Source of the DNA: Thermoplasmata archaeon
Lineage (GTDB): Archaea; Thermoplasmatota; Thermoplasmata; Lutacidiplasmatales; UBA184
Reading direction: 5' to 3'
DNA length: 64,000 bases
Assembly: GCA_021844945.1 (NCBI GenBank)
Contig: JAKBSJ010000001.1
Coordinates: 1 to 64,000 of the forward strand
The notes below the pieces were generated by a model. It ran no database searches, had not been told where the DNA came from, and saw only the letters and a list, made by a program, of their open reading frames with translations. Shown piece by piece: positions 1 to 63,532 of this stretch; the stretch's first letter is position 1, and the number at the start of each line of letters is the position of its first letter. Made by a program: the position numbers and the translations under genes.

Positions 1-552
1 TGACCCATTGGCCGACCAGAGGACCGCGGAACCGGTCTCGTTTCCGTATCCGAGGGAGAACGCGCCCGCCGAATTGGTCCGGGTCTGTACGGGACACGGA
101 GTGGAGCCGTTCGGCCAGACGAGAGGCCGACTCGAGGAGAAATCCGACCACGGCGAAAGGCAGACCGTGTCGTTGACCAGCGGGGGCTCGGCCCCACACC
201 CACCGGCACTAGCCGTGGGGGCGACGTTTAGGCAGACGTACCCCGCAATCACATTGCCGGGGCCGCTCGTGGCCGCTTGGAGCGGCGTAGGAACCCCGGC
301 CGACGTTCGTAGATCGGAAGCGGTGGGAGCGAGATGACCCCACGGAAGGGAAGCCAGGACGACCATCGCGATAACCCCGACCGCAACGGGTCCCGTCCCG
401 GTCCAGCGAAGGAGTGCGCGACGGCCTCTTCGATTCCGGGGGGCGACCCGTAGCGGTCCCGCGCTCTCCTCCGGGCCCGATGCGACCCTGTCGGGTCCAG
501 AGTTTCCGGACCCGGGTCGGTCGATCTCGCGCCTTCCGGTCTTCGTCGCCAT
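1..552 (-). CDS. Secreted or membrane-anchored hypothetical protein (N-terminal part, runs off the left edge)
   Basis: Reverse strand read by hand: ATG at 552 (MATKTGRREIDRPGSGNS...), hydrophobic segment VAVGVIAMVVLASLPWGHL, then an extracellular Thr/Ser/Gly-rich region. Open in frame to base 1, so it is absent from the ORF track. Confidence 0.6.
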   Translation of the reverse strand, partial: MATKTGRREIDRPGSGNSGPDRVASGPEESAGPLRVAPRNRRGRRALLRWTGTGPVAVGVIAMVVLASLPWGHLAPTASDLRTSAGVPTPLQAATSGPGNVIAGYVCLNVAPTASAGGCGAEPPLVNDTVCLSPWSDFSSSRPLVWPNGSTPCPVQTRTNSAGAFSLGYGNETGSAVLWSANGS

Positions 553-57709: not shown

Positions 57710-57756
57710 CCTACCCCCGAAACGCCCGGCGCGAGAGGGGCACCGGCGTACATTGG

Positions 57757-57824
57757 GATATAGGCCTATTGCTCACACTATATTAGTTAGGGGTAAACTA
57801 TATTCTTTATTCAATTACTATAAA
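57757..57824 (+). promoter_or_regulatory. Four-copy 20-bp-periodic TATA/ACTATA array, putative pst promoter/operator
   Basis: GATATAGG (57757), ACTATATT (57777), ACTATATT (57797), ACTATAAA (57817): TATA at 57759, 57779, 57799 and 57819. AT-rich island in a GC-rich window; last copy ~30 nt before the phoU ATG. Confidence 0.75.
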
Positions 57825-57849
57825 TTTGCTTGATCGGTCGCCATGGGCG

Positions 57850-58824
57850 ATGATGGCAGCGCAAGGACCGGGTCGAGTCTCGGGGGGAGTGCGGGATCGC
57901 AATCTGCCTCGTAGACGGTCCGTTTCTCCCCGGCTGATCCGGCTGGACTCGGACACACCCGCAGAACATGTTTTCCGGGAGTTGGTCGCAGCGTACGTCT
58001 CGGCCGCCCCAAGGATCGTCATTCGCCAAGAGGGAGGGATCCGAAGCAGCATCCGAGACGTGGTCTCGTCCTTCCGGGAGCGGTTCGGAGCCCGGACCCG
58101 GCTCGATGATGAGCACGGCGACCTCGTGCTCTATGGTCTCGACCCGGAGAGCCCGCCACGCCTGCCCCAACTCAGCTTCCGCCTGGGCGAATGCGTGCTC
58201 GAACTCCTGCGGGATGCCGGGCTCGGGACCGCTTCGACCGCCCGGGAAGAAGACTGGGACGAGCGCGACAACGTCGTGGACGCTCTTGCCTGGGAGGTGC
58301 AGCGGAGGGTCACTCAGGCTTGGCGGAATCCTCGAGAATATGGTCATCGCGAAAGGATCAACCCGATCCGATGGCTCGAAGCGTCGCGGGCTCTCGAGCG
58401 GATCGGGGACCATGCGGTGCTCATCGCGATCCACGGCGCCCGCTGGAGAGAGACCGAACCCGCCGAAGCGGAGCGCCGCCTCCTGACCGAATTCCATCAC
58501 CAGGCCTCGGACTACGTAGACGGCGCGTTGGTCCTGCTGGTCGATCCTCGAGTCGGTAGCGCAAACGCCGCGCTGGATCTCGGGGTCGCTCTGCGGGAGA
58601 CGGGACGAACACTAGTAGATCGCTTAATCGCAGCGCGGTCCGCCAACCCTCCGCCCCCCTTGGCGGCAGTCTCGCTGGGCTGGGTATTGCACTCTCTCGA
58701 TCGCATCGTGGCCTATGGCATGGACCTCGCCGAGATCGCTCTCGACTCCGCGCAACCTGCGCGCCCTTCATTGCACGGTCCTCCCAGCGAGGACGATACA
58801 GGAGGCAACGAAAGCCATGAGTGA
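57850..58824 (+). CDS. PhoU-domain protein lacking a recognisable N-terminal AbrB domain
   Basis: LIRLDSDTPAEHVFRELVAAYVSAAPRIVIRQEGGIRSSIRDVVSSF... then PhoU helical repeats (INPIRWLEASRALERIGDHAVLIA); head of the pst operon. Confidence 0.75.
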   Translation: MMAAQGPGRVSGGVRDRNLPRRRSVSPRLIRLDSDTPAEHVFRELVAAYVSAAPRIVIRQEGGIRSSIRDVVSSFRERFGARTRLDDEHGDLVLYGLDPESPPRLPQLSFRLGECVLELLRDAGLGTASTAREEDWDERDNVVDALAWEVQRRVTQAWRNPREYGHRERINPIRWLEASRALERIGDHAVLIAIHGARWRETEPAEAERRLLTEFHHQASDYVDGALVLLVDPRVGSANAALDLGVALRETGRTLVDRLIAARSANPPPPLAAVSLGWVLHSLDRIVAYGMDLAEIALDSAQPARPSLHGPPSEDDTGGNESHE

Positions 58825-60052
58825 GAGTTCGGGGAGCGCGACCATGACGAATGACAGTATTGTGCAAGGGGCACCGATGCGCCATCGAGGCGGTCGTAGG
58901 ATCGGCCTGGGCGTGACCATCGCGGTCGCGGTGATCCTGCTCGCGGCCGGGCTGGGAGGGGGCTACGTTCTCGGCGGTAGCCACGGCGCCTCTTCGGGAG
59001 CGACGAAGTACACCTTGTTGGAAACGGGGTCCACGCTGATCTTCCCCTACATGAACATACTCGGCCCCAAGTTTACGTCCCTCTACCCGAACATCCAGAT
59101 CTCCCCGCAAGCAACCGGTAGCGGTACCGGGATCAGTTCGGCCGAAGCGGGCACGGTCGACTTGGGTGGAACGGACGCGTATCTGCTCCCCAGTGTCGCG
59201 GCCAACTACAGTTTGATCAACGTACCTATCGCGATATCGGCCCAGCTGGCGGTCTACAACATCCCGGGGATCACGACCCACTTGAACCTCAACGGGACGG
59301 TCCTTTCAATGATCTACTCGGAGAAGATCACGAAGTGGAATGACCCTCTGATCCAAGCCGCGAACCCCGGCGTCGCTCTCCCGGACCAGACGATCGTGCC
59401 TCTCCACCGTTCCGACGGAAGCGGGGACACGTTCATGTGGACCAGCATGATGTACATGTCTTGGTCGGGTTGGACCGGCGGCTATGGGACCACGTACTCG
59501 TGGATGGCCAACCAGAAGGGGTACGAGGGAAACGCCGGCATGGTTTCCGGGCTAGAATCGACCCCGTACGGTCTCGCCTACATTGGTATCAGCTACCTCT
59601 CGGAAATCCAAGCGGACTCGAGCCTTCAGTACGCAGCGTTGGGTGACGAAGCGGCGATCGTAAACGGTACCAACCCCGCGAACTACGTCCTACCCTCGGC
59701 CCAGAACATCAGCGAGGACGCGAACCTGGCTCTGAAGAACCTCCAGCCTCCCAGCGTAGCGATCAGCCTCATACTCGGCGGAGTCCCGGGTGCGACCGAC
59801 CTCAAGCTCGGCGCCGGCGGAACACTACCGACCGCCCAGTATCCGACGCCCTACCCCGACACCAACCTCGAGTACATCCTGATCTCGACGCACCCCGCGA
59901 ACCCCAGCAAGCAAACCTGGGTGGTCAACTTCTTGGAGTGGGCCATGACGTTCGGGGCATCCTACGCGACCCAGGTGAACTTCCTTCCGTTGACACCGAC
60001 CGTGGTGGGCTACAACATCCAGGCCCTCGGCGGGGTGAACGTCAGCGCGTAG
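58817..60052 (+). CDS. pstS: Phosphate ABC transporter substrate-binding protein
   Basis: N-terminal TM; LLETGSTLIFPYMNILGPKFTSLYPNIQISPQATGSGTGISSAEAGTVDLGGTDAYL; VPLHRSDGSGDTFMWTSMM. Confidence 0.93.
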   Translation: MSESSGSATMTNDSIVQGAPMRHRGGRRIGLGVTIAVAVILLAAGLGGGYVLGGSHGASSGATKYTLLETGSTLIFPYMNILGPKFTSLYPNIQISPQATGSGTGISSAEAGTVDLGGTDAYLLPSVAANYSLINVPIAISAQLAVYNIPGITTHLNLNGTVLSMIYSEKITKWNDPLIQAANPGVALPDQTIVPLHRSDGSGDTFMWTSMMYMSWSGWTGGYGTTYSWMANQKGYEGNAGMVSGLESTPYGLAYIGISYLSEIQADSSLQYAALGDEAAIVNGTNPANYVLPSAQNISEDANLALKNLQPPSVAISLILGGVPGATDLKLGAGGTLPTAQYPTPYPDTNLEYILISTHPANPSKQTWVVNFLEWAMTFGASYATQVNFLPLTPTVVGYNIQALGGVNVSA

Positions 60053-60067
60053 GGGAGGCCTCGACCC

Positions 60068-61078
60068 TTGGACCCGCCGACCGGAGATCAACCTGTTCCC
60101 GGCGGAGAGGGCGCGAGCGCCGCGCCCTTCTCCGCTCTTCCCACTCCCCGCTCCATCACGTGGCGGGCCTGGCTGGGAAGCCCGATTGCTCTGCTTCCGC
60201 TCGCTCTCGTTGCGGCGATCGTGATTGTTCTCCTCTACGCTTCGGAACTGAAGAACTTCGGTTGGTCGTTCTGGAGCTTCAACTACCTCTTCGACCCGCT
60301 CACCGACTCGGGGTCGTTCGGGGTCGGGATTTTCGCAGCCGGAAGCGCGATCACCGCCACCCTGGCATTGATCCTTGCGGGCCTGCTCAGCCTCGCCATC
60401 GCGATCTCCCTGACCGTCTATCTTCCCCCGATTGCGAGCCGCCCGCTGACCATTCTCACCAATCTGCTCGCGGGAATCCCCAGCGTGGTCTACGGCATCT
60501 GGGGGTACGTCATCTTGGCGCCGTACTTCGGATCCACCCTCGAGCCCACGCTCCAGAACGTCATCGGATTCATCCCGGGGTTCGGCGGAACCCGAGTGGA
60601 TACCGCCGGCGGAACGGGGCTCCTACTTGCCATCTTCATCCTGACGATCATGGTGATCCCTCTGACCACCGCGATCATGCGGGAGTCGCTTCGCAACGTT
60701 CCTAGGGACTTGGTCGAAGCGGGCCTGGCCCTGGGTGCCACTCAGTGGGAAGTGACCCGCCAAGTTCGTCTGAAGGTTGCGCGCGGCGGGCTCTGGGGGG
60801 CTCTGTTCCTCGGGTTCGGTCGGGCCATCGGAGAGGCGGTCGCGGTCGCGATGGTCATCGGGGCCTCGATCCAAATCCCATCGACCATCTATGGGGGATC
60901 CACAACGATTGCCTCCTTCATTTTTTATCAGCTCGATAGCGCGTTCACCTATCCGTCGCTTCTCCAGGCACTCGTCGAGTACGCCCTAATCCTCCTCGCC
61001 ATCGCGGTGATCGTGAACGTCGTGGGGCAGCGAGCGACCCACTCCGACACGATCGCTGCGGCCACGGGAGGGGTCTGA
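60068..61078 (+). CDS. pstC: Phosphate ABC transporter permease PstC
   Basis: LLAGIPSVVYGIWGYVIL; RESLRNVPRDLVEAGLALGATQWEVTRQVRLKVARGGLWGALFLGFGRAIGEAVAVAMVIG. Confidence 0.93.
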   Translation: MDPPTGDQPVPGGEGASAAPFSALPTPRSITWRAWLGSPIALLPLALVAAIVIVLLYASELKNFGWSFWSFNYLFDPLTDSGSFGVGIFAAGSAITATLALILAGLLSLAIAISLTVYLPPIASRPLTILTNLLAGIPSVVYGIWGYVILAPYFGSTLEPTLQNVIGFIPGFGGTRVDTAGGTGLLLAIFILTIMVIPLTTAIMRESLRNVPRDLVEAGLALGATQWEVTRQVRLKVARGGLWGALFLGFGRAIGEAVAVAMVIGASIQIPSTIYGGSTTIASFIFYQLDSAFTYPSLLQALVEYALILLAIAVIVNVVGQRATHSDTIAAATGGV

Positions 61079-61083
61079 ACCCA

Positions 61084-61983
61084 ATGGTCGCTGCTCCCGA
61101 CGCGGACCATTCGTTGCTGAACCCAACGGGGCACGTGCGCCGCCGCCTCGCGCTCGACCGCGCGGTGCGCTGGCTCCTCCTCCTCGCCTTTGCAGCCGTT
61201 CTCTTCCCTCTCCTCGACATGGTCTACTGGATCTCCGCGCGGGCGGTCCCGGCATTCACTTGGGGGACTTTCACCGAGAATCAGGTGGGCTTGGGCGGAG
61301 GCCTGCATGCGATGATCATCGGAACGCTGTTCCTCATCGGGATCGCGACCGCCTTTGCGGTGGGTATCGGGGTCGTTTCAGGGATGTACACGGCGGAGTA
61401 CGCGCCTCCGGCGGTGGCCCACTCGGCCCGGGTCATCGGCAACGTCCTGGCCGGAGTTCCGGCGATCGTGATCGGATACTTCGGGTACTACGCTCTCGTG
61501 CTTTACACCCACTGGGGGTACAACTCGCTCGCCGGAGGGATCGCCCTCGGCGTGTTCATGGTTCCGTTCGTCTTCCGGACGACGGACATCGGTTTCGCCG
61601 CCGTTCCCCGGGCCCAACGCGAAGCGACGCTGGCTCTCGGAGCGCGGCGGTCCCAGTACTTGGCGCGGGTAGCGTTTCCGATCGCGTTGCCCACCATGCT
61701 GTCCGGCGTTTTCCTGGCGATGGCGATCGGCCTGGGCGAGACCGCTCCGCTGATCTATACGGCCGGCTGGAGCTCCTCCACGGTCACCGGCCTTCTCCAG
61801 CCGACCAGCTACCTGACCGGGGCCATCTGGAACTTCTACGACTTCCCCAGCACCGAGGGCTCGTTCCTGACCCTCGCGTTCCAGGCCGCCTTCCTGCTGA
61901 TCGTGATTTCGCTCACGGTCAACATCGCCATTCAGGTCATCGCGGACCGTTACCGCCGCCGCTTGAGGGGGTTGTTCCAGTGA
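61084..61983 (+). CDS. pstA: Phosphate ABC transporter permease PstA
   Basis: NVLAGVPAIVIGYFGYYAL; AVPRAQREATLALGARRSQYLARVAFPIALPTMLSGVFLAMAIGLGETAPLIYTA. Confidence 0.93.
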   Translation: MVAAPDADHSLLNPTGHVRRRLALDRAVRWLLLLAFAAVLFPLLDMVYWISARAVPAFTWGTFTENQVGLGGGLHAMIIGTLFLIGIATAFAVGIGVVSGMYTAEYAPPAVAHSARVIGNVLAGVPAIVIGYFGYYALVLYTHWGYNSLAGGIALGVFMVPFVFRTTDIGFAAVPRAQREATLALGARRSQYLARVAFPIALPTMLSGVFLAMAIGLGETAPLIYTAGWSSSTVTGLLQPTSYLTGAIWNFYDFPSTEGSFLTLAFQAAFLLIVISLTVNIAIQVIADRYRRRLRGLFQ

Positions 61984-62753
61984 CCGATACGGTACCGGTG
62001 GGGCCCCCCATCATCGAAGTGCGGAACTTGAAGGTCGGGGCGTCCGAGCGCACCATCTTGGACGACGTTACGCTCGATGTGTTCGACCGTCAGGTGACGG
62101 CGGTCATTGGGCCTTCGGGTTCCGGCAAGACGACCTTCATACGCACGCTCAACCGAATGGTCGAGACGACCCCGGGCCTGCGCGTGGAAGGATCTATCCG
62201 CTATCAGGGGCAGGACATCCACGATCCGCGCGTGAACCCCGTGCTCCTGCGCCAACGCATCGGGATGGTGTTCCAGCGGCCGGCCGTGTTTCCTATGTCC
62301 ATCTACAACAACGTCGTGTTCGGTCTGCGCCTCAACGGTACTGACCCGAGCGAGTTCGATCGAATCGTCGGCCATTCCCTAGAGCGGGCGGGGCTGCTCA
62401 AGGAACTTCAGGGAAACCTCGATCGCCCAGCGTTCGAACTTTCGGGGGGGCAGCAGCAGCGCCTATGTATCGCGCGCGCGCTCGCGGTCAAGCCCCGCGT
62501 CCTTTTGATGGACGAACCCACCGGTAGCCTCGACCCGATCTCGACGCAACGGGTCGAGGAGACCGTCGAGGAGCTCCGGCGTGAAATCGCCATCGTCATC
62601 GTGACCCATAGCATTGCCCAGGCGGCCCGTGTTTCCGACCGGACCGCATACTTCTACCAAGGCCGTCTTGTGGAAGTCGCCCCCACCGAAGTGCTGTTCG
62701 AGCGACCCACTCAGAAGCTCACCGAGGAGTACATCACCGGGAGATTTGGATGA
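61980..62753 (+). CDS. pstB: Phosphate ABC transporter ATP-binding protein PstB
   Basis: VIGPSGSGKTTFIRTLNRMVETTPGLRVEGSIRYQGQDIHDPRVNPVLLRQRIGMVFQRPAVFPMSIYNNVVFGLRLNG; LSGGQQQRLCIARALAVKPRVLLMDEPTGSLDP. GTG start. Confidence 0.96.
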   Translation: MTDTVPVGPPIIEVRNLKVGASERTILDDVTLDVFDRQVTAVIGPSGSGKTTFIRTLNRMVETTPGLRVEGSIRYQGQDIHDPRVNPVLLRQRIGMVFQRPAVFPMSIYNNVVFGLRLNGTDPSEFDRIVGHSLERAGLLKELQGNLDRPAFELSGGQQQRLCIARALAVKPRVLLMDEPTGSLDPISTQRVEETVEELRREIAIVIVTHSIAQAARVSDRTAYFYQGRLVEVAPTEVLFERPTQKLTEEYITGRFG

Positions 62754-63532
62754 GCGGAACACCACCGGCCAGCCGCGACGCCGCGCGAGGATACGACCGA
62801 GAGATCGGCCGGCTCAAGTCCGATGCCGTCGAGATGGGACACTGGGCACTGGCGATGGTCCACGATGGGTGGACCGCGTTCCAGCGGTCCGATCTGAAGC
62901 TGGCGCAAGCCGTGCTGGATCGGGATACGCGCCTATCCAAGTACGAGGAGGACATCGAGCACGAGACCATCTCGTTCCTTCTCCTCCGTAAACCGGCGGG
63001 AGGCGATCTGCGGACTGCGGTCGGCCTTCTCAAAGCGACGACGTACCTGGATCGCATCGGCCGACTCGGATTCGACATCGCGCGGATCACGACCCCCGAG
63101 GTCCGATCGGATCTCCCCGAGCTGAGAGACCACTTACAGAACATGGACATCCTCGCGGAGTCCCAAGTGGCTCTCGTTCTCGACGCGCTCGAGCACGACA
63201 AGATCGAAGTCGCCCGCTCGCTGTTCGACCGCGACGACGAGATCGACCGGATGCACCGTGAGACCAATCGCATTGCGGTCCGCCAGCTCCTGTTCGACCC
63301 TCTTTCGGGCCAGCGCACGAGCAACGAGATCCTGATCGCGCGGCACTTCGAGCGGATCGCGGACAACGCCTGCCGCATCGCCGAGAAGGTGATCTATGGC
63401 CTCACCGGACAACGGCCCAGCGAGTACCTGCCCCGCCACCCGTACCTTCCGTACGTGCTCGAGCCGCCTCCCGGGGACGGCGGCCGTGGGGAGGGGGGAT
63501 CGCCGCCGATGCCTCCCGATCGATCGGCTTAG
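62750..63532 (+). CDS. phoU: Phosphate signalling complex protein PhoU
   Basis: RGYDREIGRLKSDAVEMGHWALAMVHDGWTAFQRSDLKLAQAVLDRDTRLSKYEEDIEHETISFLLLRKPAGGDLRTAVGLLKATTYLDRIGRLGFDIARI. Confidence 0.93.
   Translation: MSGTPPASRDAARGYDREIGRLKSDAVEMGHWALAMVHDGWTAFQRSDLKLAQAVLDRDTRLSKYEEDIEHETISFLLLRKPAGGDLRTAVGLLKATTYLDRIGRLGFDIARITTPEVRSDLPELRDHLQNMDILAESQVALVLDALEHDKIEVARSLFDRDDEIDRMHRETNRIAVRQLLFDPLSGQRTSNEILIARHFERIADNACRIAEKVIYGLTGQRPSEYLPRHPYLPYVLEPPPGDGGRGEGGSPPMPPDRSA

Follow-up and report, generated by a model that had tools for sequence, protein, structure and literature searches.

In the archaeal DNA analysed here (64,000 nucleotides of contig JAKBSJ010000001.1 from the Thermoplasmata archaeon assembly GCA_021844945.1, hereafter the window), a phosphate-transport operon is preceded by an array of evenly spaced TATA-containing repeats. 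A first-pass annotation, made from the letters of the sequence, had described a phoU-pstSCAB-phoU operon at this place, and Pfam and NCBIfam bear out the order phoU1-pstS-pstC-pstA-pstB-phoU2. The island in front of it (57751-57850) is AT-rich, with a GC content of 37% compared with 68% for the whole window. TATA tetramers start at 57759, 57779, 57799 and 57819, which gives a constant period of 20 bp; three of them lie in ACTATA (starts at 57777, 57797 and 57817) and the most distal in GATATA (57757). These positions and their exact spacing, as first reported, were recovered in full. The array consists of the following elements, which include a sequence resembling a transcription factor B recognition element (BRE):

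57757-57769, + strand: most distal copy, GATATAGGCCTAT; the weakest part of the array, found elsewhere only in the nearest relative, G064
57777-57789, + strand: upstream operator copy (putative), ACTATATTAGTTA, 20 bp above the main box; a 20-bp copy is also present in G001, G027 and G064
57797-57809, + strand: main box (candidate Pho box), ACTATATTCTTTA, lying exactly 20 bp above the TATA box; its position is conserved in the genus, in the class and in two families beyond the class
57810-57816, + strand: BRE-like element, TTCAATT, beside the TATA box; genus consensus TTGAAATT
57817-57825, + strand: proximal TATA box, ACTATAAAT, 31 nt before the phoU1 ATG

The assignment of TTCAATT as a putative BRE comes from its adjacency to the TATA box. 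The proximal copy had been proposed as the TATA box of a leaderless transcript, and it looks so at its distance of 31 nt from the ATG at 57850; a leaderless phoU1 transcript would be expected from it, with a transcription start that we infer from this spacing.

The pattern TATA-N16-TATA-N16-TATA has its sole match in the window at the array, and it appeared in none of 100 dinucleotide shuffles. Across the whole genome (1.26 Mb), CTATA-N(5..35)-CTATA matched twice, both times inside the array and with the 20-bp period, and the reversed control pattern matched five times in all. When the island (57751-57850) was itself dinucleotide-shuffled 20,000 times, at least three TATA at period 20 arose in 0.04% of the shuffles and four in none, and at least three at any period from 8 to 33 arose in 1.1%. 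The copies at 57777 and 57797 form a 13-nt direct repeat (85%; ACTATATTAGTTA and ACTATATTCTTTA) with a spacing of 20.

The operon downstream comprises six genes:

57850-58824, + strand: phoU1, PhoU-domain protein (Pfam PF01895, 4.1e-07); no MazE/AbrB hit
58817-60052, + strand: pstS, phosphate-binding protein (TIGR00975, above cut-off); the start is our choice
60068-61078, + strand: pstC, permease (TIGR02138, above cut-off)
61084-61983, + strand: pstA, permease (TIGR00974, 1.8e-53, below the curated cut-off)
61980-62753, + strand: pstB, ATPase (TIGR00972, 6e-101, just below the curated cut-off)
62750-63532, + strand: phoU2, ordinary two-domain PhoU (PF01895, 6.6e-32, in two stretches; TIGR02135, 5.5e-37)

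The phoU1 frame starts at the ATG at 57850 (or at 57853); another ATG shortly before it, at 57843, belongs to a different frame.

Conservation and placement of the box

Relatives were found by protein searches with phoU1 and pstS, and their upstream regions were then compared; those identified by title are 'Thermoplasmata archaeon' genome records assembled from metagenomes. Most of these regions carry the same promoter. An ungapped consensus of 38 sites reads about CTATR-N8-[C/A]TATAGTCTAAATTGAAATTCTATATAT, in which the invariance of the TATA columns reflects how the sites were selected and the TCTAAAT and GAAATT columns were unselected; two of the 38 sites (L049 and L053) fell out of register and were excluded from the model. 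Among 56 upstream regions chosen irrespective of the motif, a TATA pair was spaced at 20 bp in 34 and at 19 or 21 bp in none. A 22-bp TATA spacing was also common (43); the two possible registers of the proximal TATATA account for at least part of this. In many relatives, 30-31 nt separate the proximal TATA box from the ATG. The first-pass annotation had named a lack of conservation of the hexamers and their spacing in close relatives as an outcome that would speak against it; the relatives clearly do not show this outcome.

Among 50 promoters, an exact CTATR lies 12 bp above the main box in 21 and 20 bp above it in 5. With this companion most often at 12 bp, the evenly spaced 20-bp array would be one local form of a broader layout. 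The suggested 20-bp phasing therefore holds for the distance from box to TATA box but not for the full 20-20-20 array, which, on this comparison, is limited to the window's genome and its nearest relatives. By the same alignments, the unit with deep conservation is a single box, TATA[G/T]TCTA..T, placed exactly 20 bp above the TATA box, together with a further box that usually lies 12 bp above it.

To see which genes this unit precedes, a model built from the sequence of the element alone (R1) was run on 61 whole genomes of the genus. Matches occurred in 55 of the 61, one to three in most genomes, usually one or two, and 87 in all, and 85 of the 87 precede phoU-like or pstS genes. Of these, 68 lie before phoU1 or pstS genes already known from the protein search, 15 more lie before other PhoU-like genes, and 2 are at contig ends, where short frames resemble phoU1 N-termini in a reading by eye that was unscored. 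About a third of the 61 genomes (G061-G084) lay outside the phoU search, though R1 does include a few pstS promoters from them. The remainder comprises one weak match and a match on G024:C98 before a small gene of another kind. Even at E<=10, R1 matches nothing in the window's own genome but the array; the E-values of this model and of the second one described below are rough. The strict pattern TATAKTCTANNTN8TATAWA matched 46 times in 78 genomes, and its reverse had no match.

As a control set we used the promoters of AbrB-PhoU genes, which encode a predicted DNA-binding domain fused to PhoU and are described below; the other TATA boxes of the window yielded only two usable genes and were dropped as a control. 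In the genus, these AbrB-PhoU genes carry just one TATA box, some 30 nt ahead of the ATG, and lack the -20 box, which is therefore no general feature of promoters. Genome-wide, the element is confined to phosphate genes (85 of 87 matches in the genus; one of one in the window's own genome), as a general Pho operator would be. It behaves, as far as sequence can tell, as a dedicated Pho operator at a fixed distance of 20 bp, or two helical turns, from the TATA box. The phosphate operator proposed at first thus stands with regard to its conservation and its placement before phosphate genes, but the conserved unit is the -20 box with its companion and not the even array.

The match on G024:C98 (G024:C98:16007; L107/L276) is a good one and precedes a small CxxC...CxxxxC protein without PhoU or Pst similarity, which is a possible further member of the regulon.

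Outside the genus, R1 and a second model (R2) matched before pstS, PhoU or AbrB-PhoU genes in families f6, f7, f8, f9, f12, f13, f14, f15, f22 and f29, as well as f1, within the class. Several R2 matches were its own building sites; class sites that were not used in building R2 are those in G213, G145, G164, G231, G219, G048, G049, G220, G202, G206, G044, G163, G216, G221 and G209. Beyond the class, in families f32 and f43, 11 of 12 checked matches precede pstS. In G085, a genome of the same family (L118, G085:C27), the box stands not before pst but before an unrelated major facilitator superfamily (MFS) phosphate:H+ symporter of the Pho84/PHT1 type, which matches TIGR00887 at 1.6e-135 and solved phosphate transporters at up to 2.6e-104. 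This match supports the phosphate reading of the box.

Some further matches are recorded here as observations. The box in L252 (G118:C27) precedes an MFS gene that resembles the G085 symporter by look alone, a match in G210 has an MFS gene behind it, and in L123 (G104:C37) the box lies behind pstB-phoU, with a metallophosphoesterase-like frame downstream. R1 matches in AT-rich genomes of family f19 (L130-L133), which adjoin no pst or phoU gene of their own type, were taken as chance, as were R2 matches in G038 and G299, the latter inside a coding region.

A candidate regulator and known systems

We found no PhoB-type (Trans_reg_C) DNA-binding domain in the window's genome, which is 87% complete. 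The genome does carry an AbrB(MazE)-PhoU fusion gene (G000:C4:196773-197873), whose protein matches PF04014 (MazE_antitoxin; 29.2 bits) and PF01895 (86.8 bits), both above cut-off. AbrB-PhoU genes are present in 116 of 150 class genomes, and in several related families the gene is divergent to pstS. The product of phoU1 is PhoU only, its N-terminal AbrB/MazE half missing, and some orthologs in the genus (among L006, L007, L098 and L105, which were compared) keep a degenerate, sub-threshold MazE match; this suggests that phoU1 descended from a duplicated AbrB-PhoU gene.

On balance, we consider it fairly probable that the array is a phosphate-dedicated promoter with a regulator site 20 bp above the TATA box and with AbrB-PhoU as the likeliest regulator. 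The element looks like a hitherto undescribed phosphate on/off switch in microbes that lack the bacterial PhoB/PhoR pair, and we infer that the promoter responds to phosphate. According to this model, the BRE and TATA box (57810-57825) would drive a leaderless phoU-pst transcript, and a sequence-specific regulator would bind at 57797-57809, in contact with the BRE and two helical turns away from the TATA box, with the copy at 57777, and perhaps that at 57757, adding further binding. The chances that AbrB-PhoU is itself the binder of the Pho box seem to us about even. If so, its PhoU half may read the transport state of PstSCAB while its AbrB half binds the box, and one protein would do the job of the PhoR/PhoB pair. 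During phosphate shortage, AbrB-PhoU would help the TATA-binding protein (TBP) and transcription factor B (TFB) to bind. Archaeal activator sites typically sit just upstream of the BRE (PMC5512572, PMC4158304), and the box just upstream of the BRE favours such activation, which we regard as reasonably probable. Tentatively, and with slightly less than even confidence, we propose that an ancestral Thermoplasmatota Pho regulon was run by a one-component AbrB-PhoU that sensed Pst transport and acted at a box two helical turns from the TATA box, in place of PhoR/PhoB, and that in the window's lineage the duplicate phoU1 lost its DNA-binding half and became an operon-encoded partner.

Several known systems resemble parts of this arrangement. 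In Halobacterium salinarum, pho-boxes (P-box) in the pst promoters are tied to PhoU-type regulators and are required for up-regulation at low phosphate, according to the account of Furtwangler et al. (2010) given in PMC6560208. As described there, the P-box is an archaeal cis element in pst promoters, where the element in the window also lies, but it belongs to another phylum, whereas the window's box stays at a fixed 20 bp from the TATA box and occurs in many Thermoplasmatota families; the likeness of the two is one of location. The bacterial PhoB Pho box likewise consists of repeated sites before pst and phoU genes, but its period is 11 bp, compared with 20 or 12 bp here, and the PhoB consensus (CTGTCAT-type direct repeats) had no match in the window at up to 3 mismatches. 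In the Methanococcus maripaludis fla promoter (EarA sites) and in the Sulfolobus ara-box, short activator sites are also repeated directly above the BRE (PMC5512572), although they differ from the window's box in genes, sequence and regulator. The domain pair of the proposed regulator recurs in TK2245 of Thermococcus kodakarensis, a SpoVT/AbrB-PhoU protein found among chromosome-associated proteins (PMC7325993); the literature found describes no operator for it. Nor did the literature searched, which covers the field in part, contain a published Pho operator in Thermoplasmatota.

How archaea that lack PhoR/PhoB sense a shortage of phosphate is little understood. An operator that is compact and, in many Thermoplasmatota, stands almost only before phosphate-transport genes, together with a plausible regulator, makes this question open to direct binding and reporter tests, and the box offers a simple marker for the Pho regulons of uncultured archaea.

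Alternative explanations

Several observations weigh against the proposed model. In the genus, the AbrB-PhoU gene does not adjoin pst and its own promoter lacks the box; G002, G071, G013 and G019 retain the place of the -20 box without its TATA; and 153 of 200 class genomes gave no match at the thresholds used, so that loss, divergence or missed weak sites would be common across the class. One possible explanation is that the operator is the same but the regulator is another: a winged-helix or other DNA-binding protein may bind the box, with AbrB-PhoU acting elsewhere. The lack of linkage in the window's genus agrees with this, as do a few box-bearing genomes without an AbrB-PhoU match (for example, G157 and G164, which are incomplete), but AbrB-PhoU genes are common across the class and, in several families, divergent to pstS, and we consider this explanation rather unlikely.

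The mode of action could also be the reverse, with a repressor that, at ample phosphate, covers the box and the BRE and holds TFB away from the promoter. The conserved box directly abuts the BRE, and TFB could be blocked from there, which also counts against activation; however, archaeal sites in this position are typically those of activators (PMC5512572, PMC4158304), and the pho-boxes of H. salinarum are reported (PMC6560208) as required for up-regulation. We consider repression rather unlikely.

The first-pass annotation had left a choice between operator half-sites and stacked TBP sites. As stacked TATA boxes, the -20 copy would be a second TBP site that supports an alternative start 20 nt upstream, in keeping with the TATA core in both copies. 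By contrast, the upstream copy has a conserved extension of its own (TATA-G/T-TCTAAAT) unlike the proximal TATATAT, so that conservation reaches beyond TATA into GTCTAAAT, and the -20 copy is specific to phosphate genes and absent from control promoters of the same TATA type. The operator part of the suggestion is therefore retained, and stacked TBP sites are quite improbable.

A chance regularity in an AT-rich promoter island, to which the low GC content of the island lends itself, is scarcely credible given the shuffle results and the same spacing before the same genes in many genomes: conservation rules it out for the 57797/57817 pair, and chance may account for the copy at 57757, which the nearest relative shares within flanks that are equally similar. 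That most distal copy contains a 10-bp palindrome, ATAGGCCTAT, at 57760-57769, and strings like it, AATAGGCCTATAT and AATAGACCTATAT, lie in L122 and L126 between AbrB-PhoU and pstS genes that are divergent to each other.
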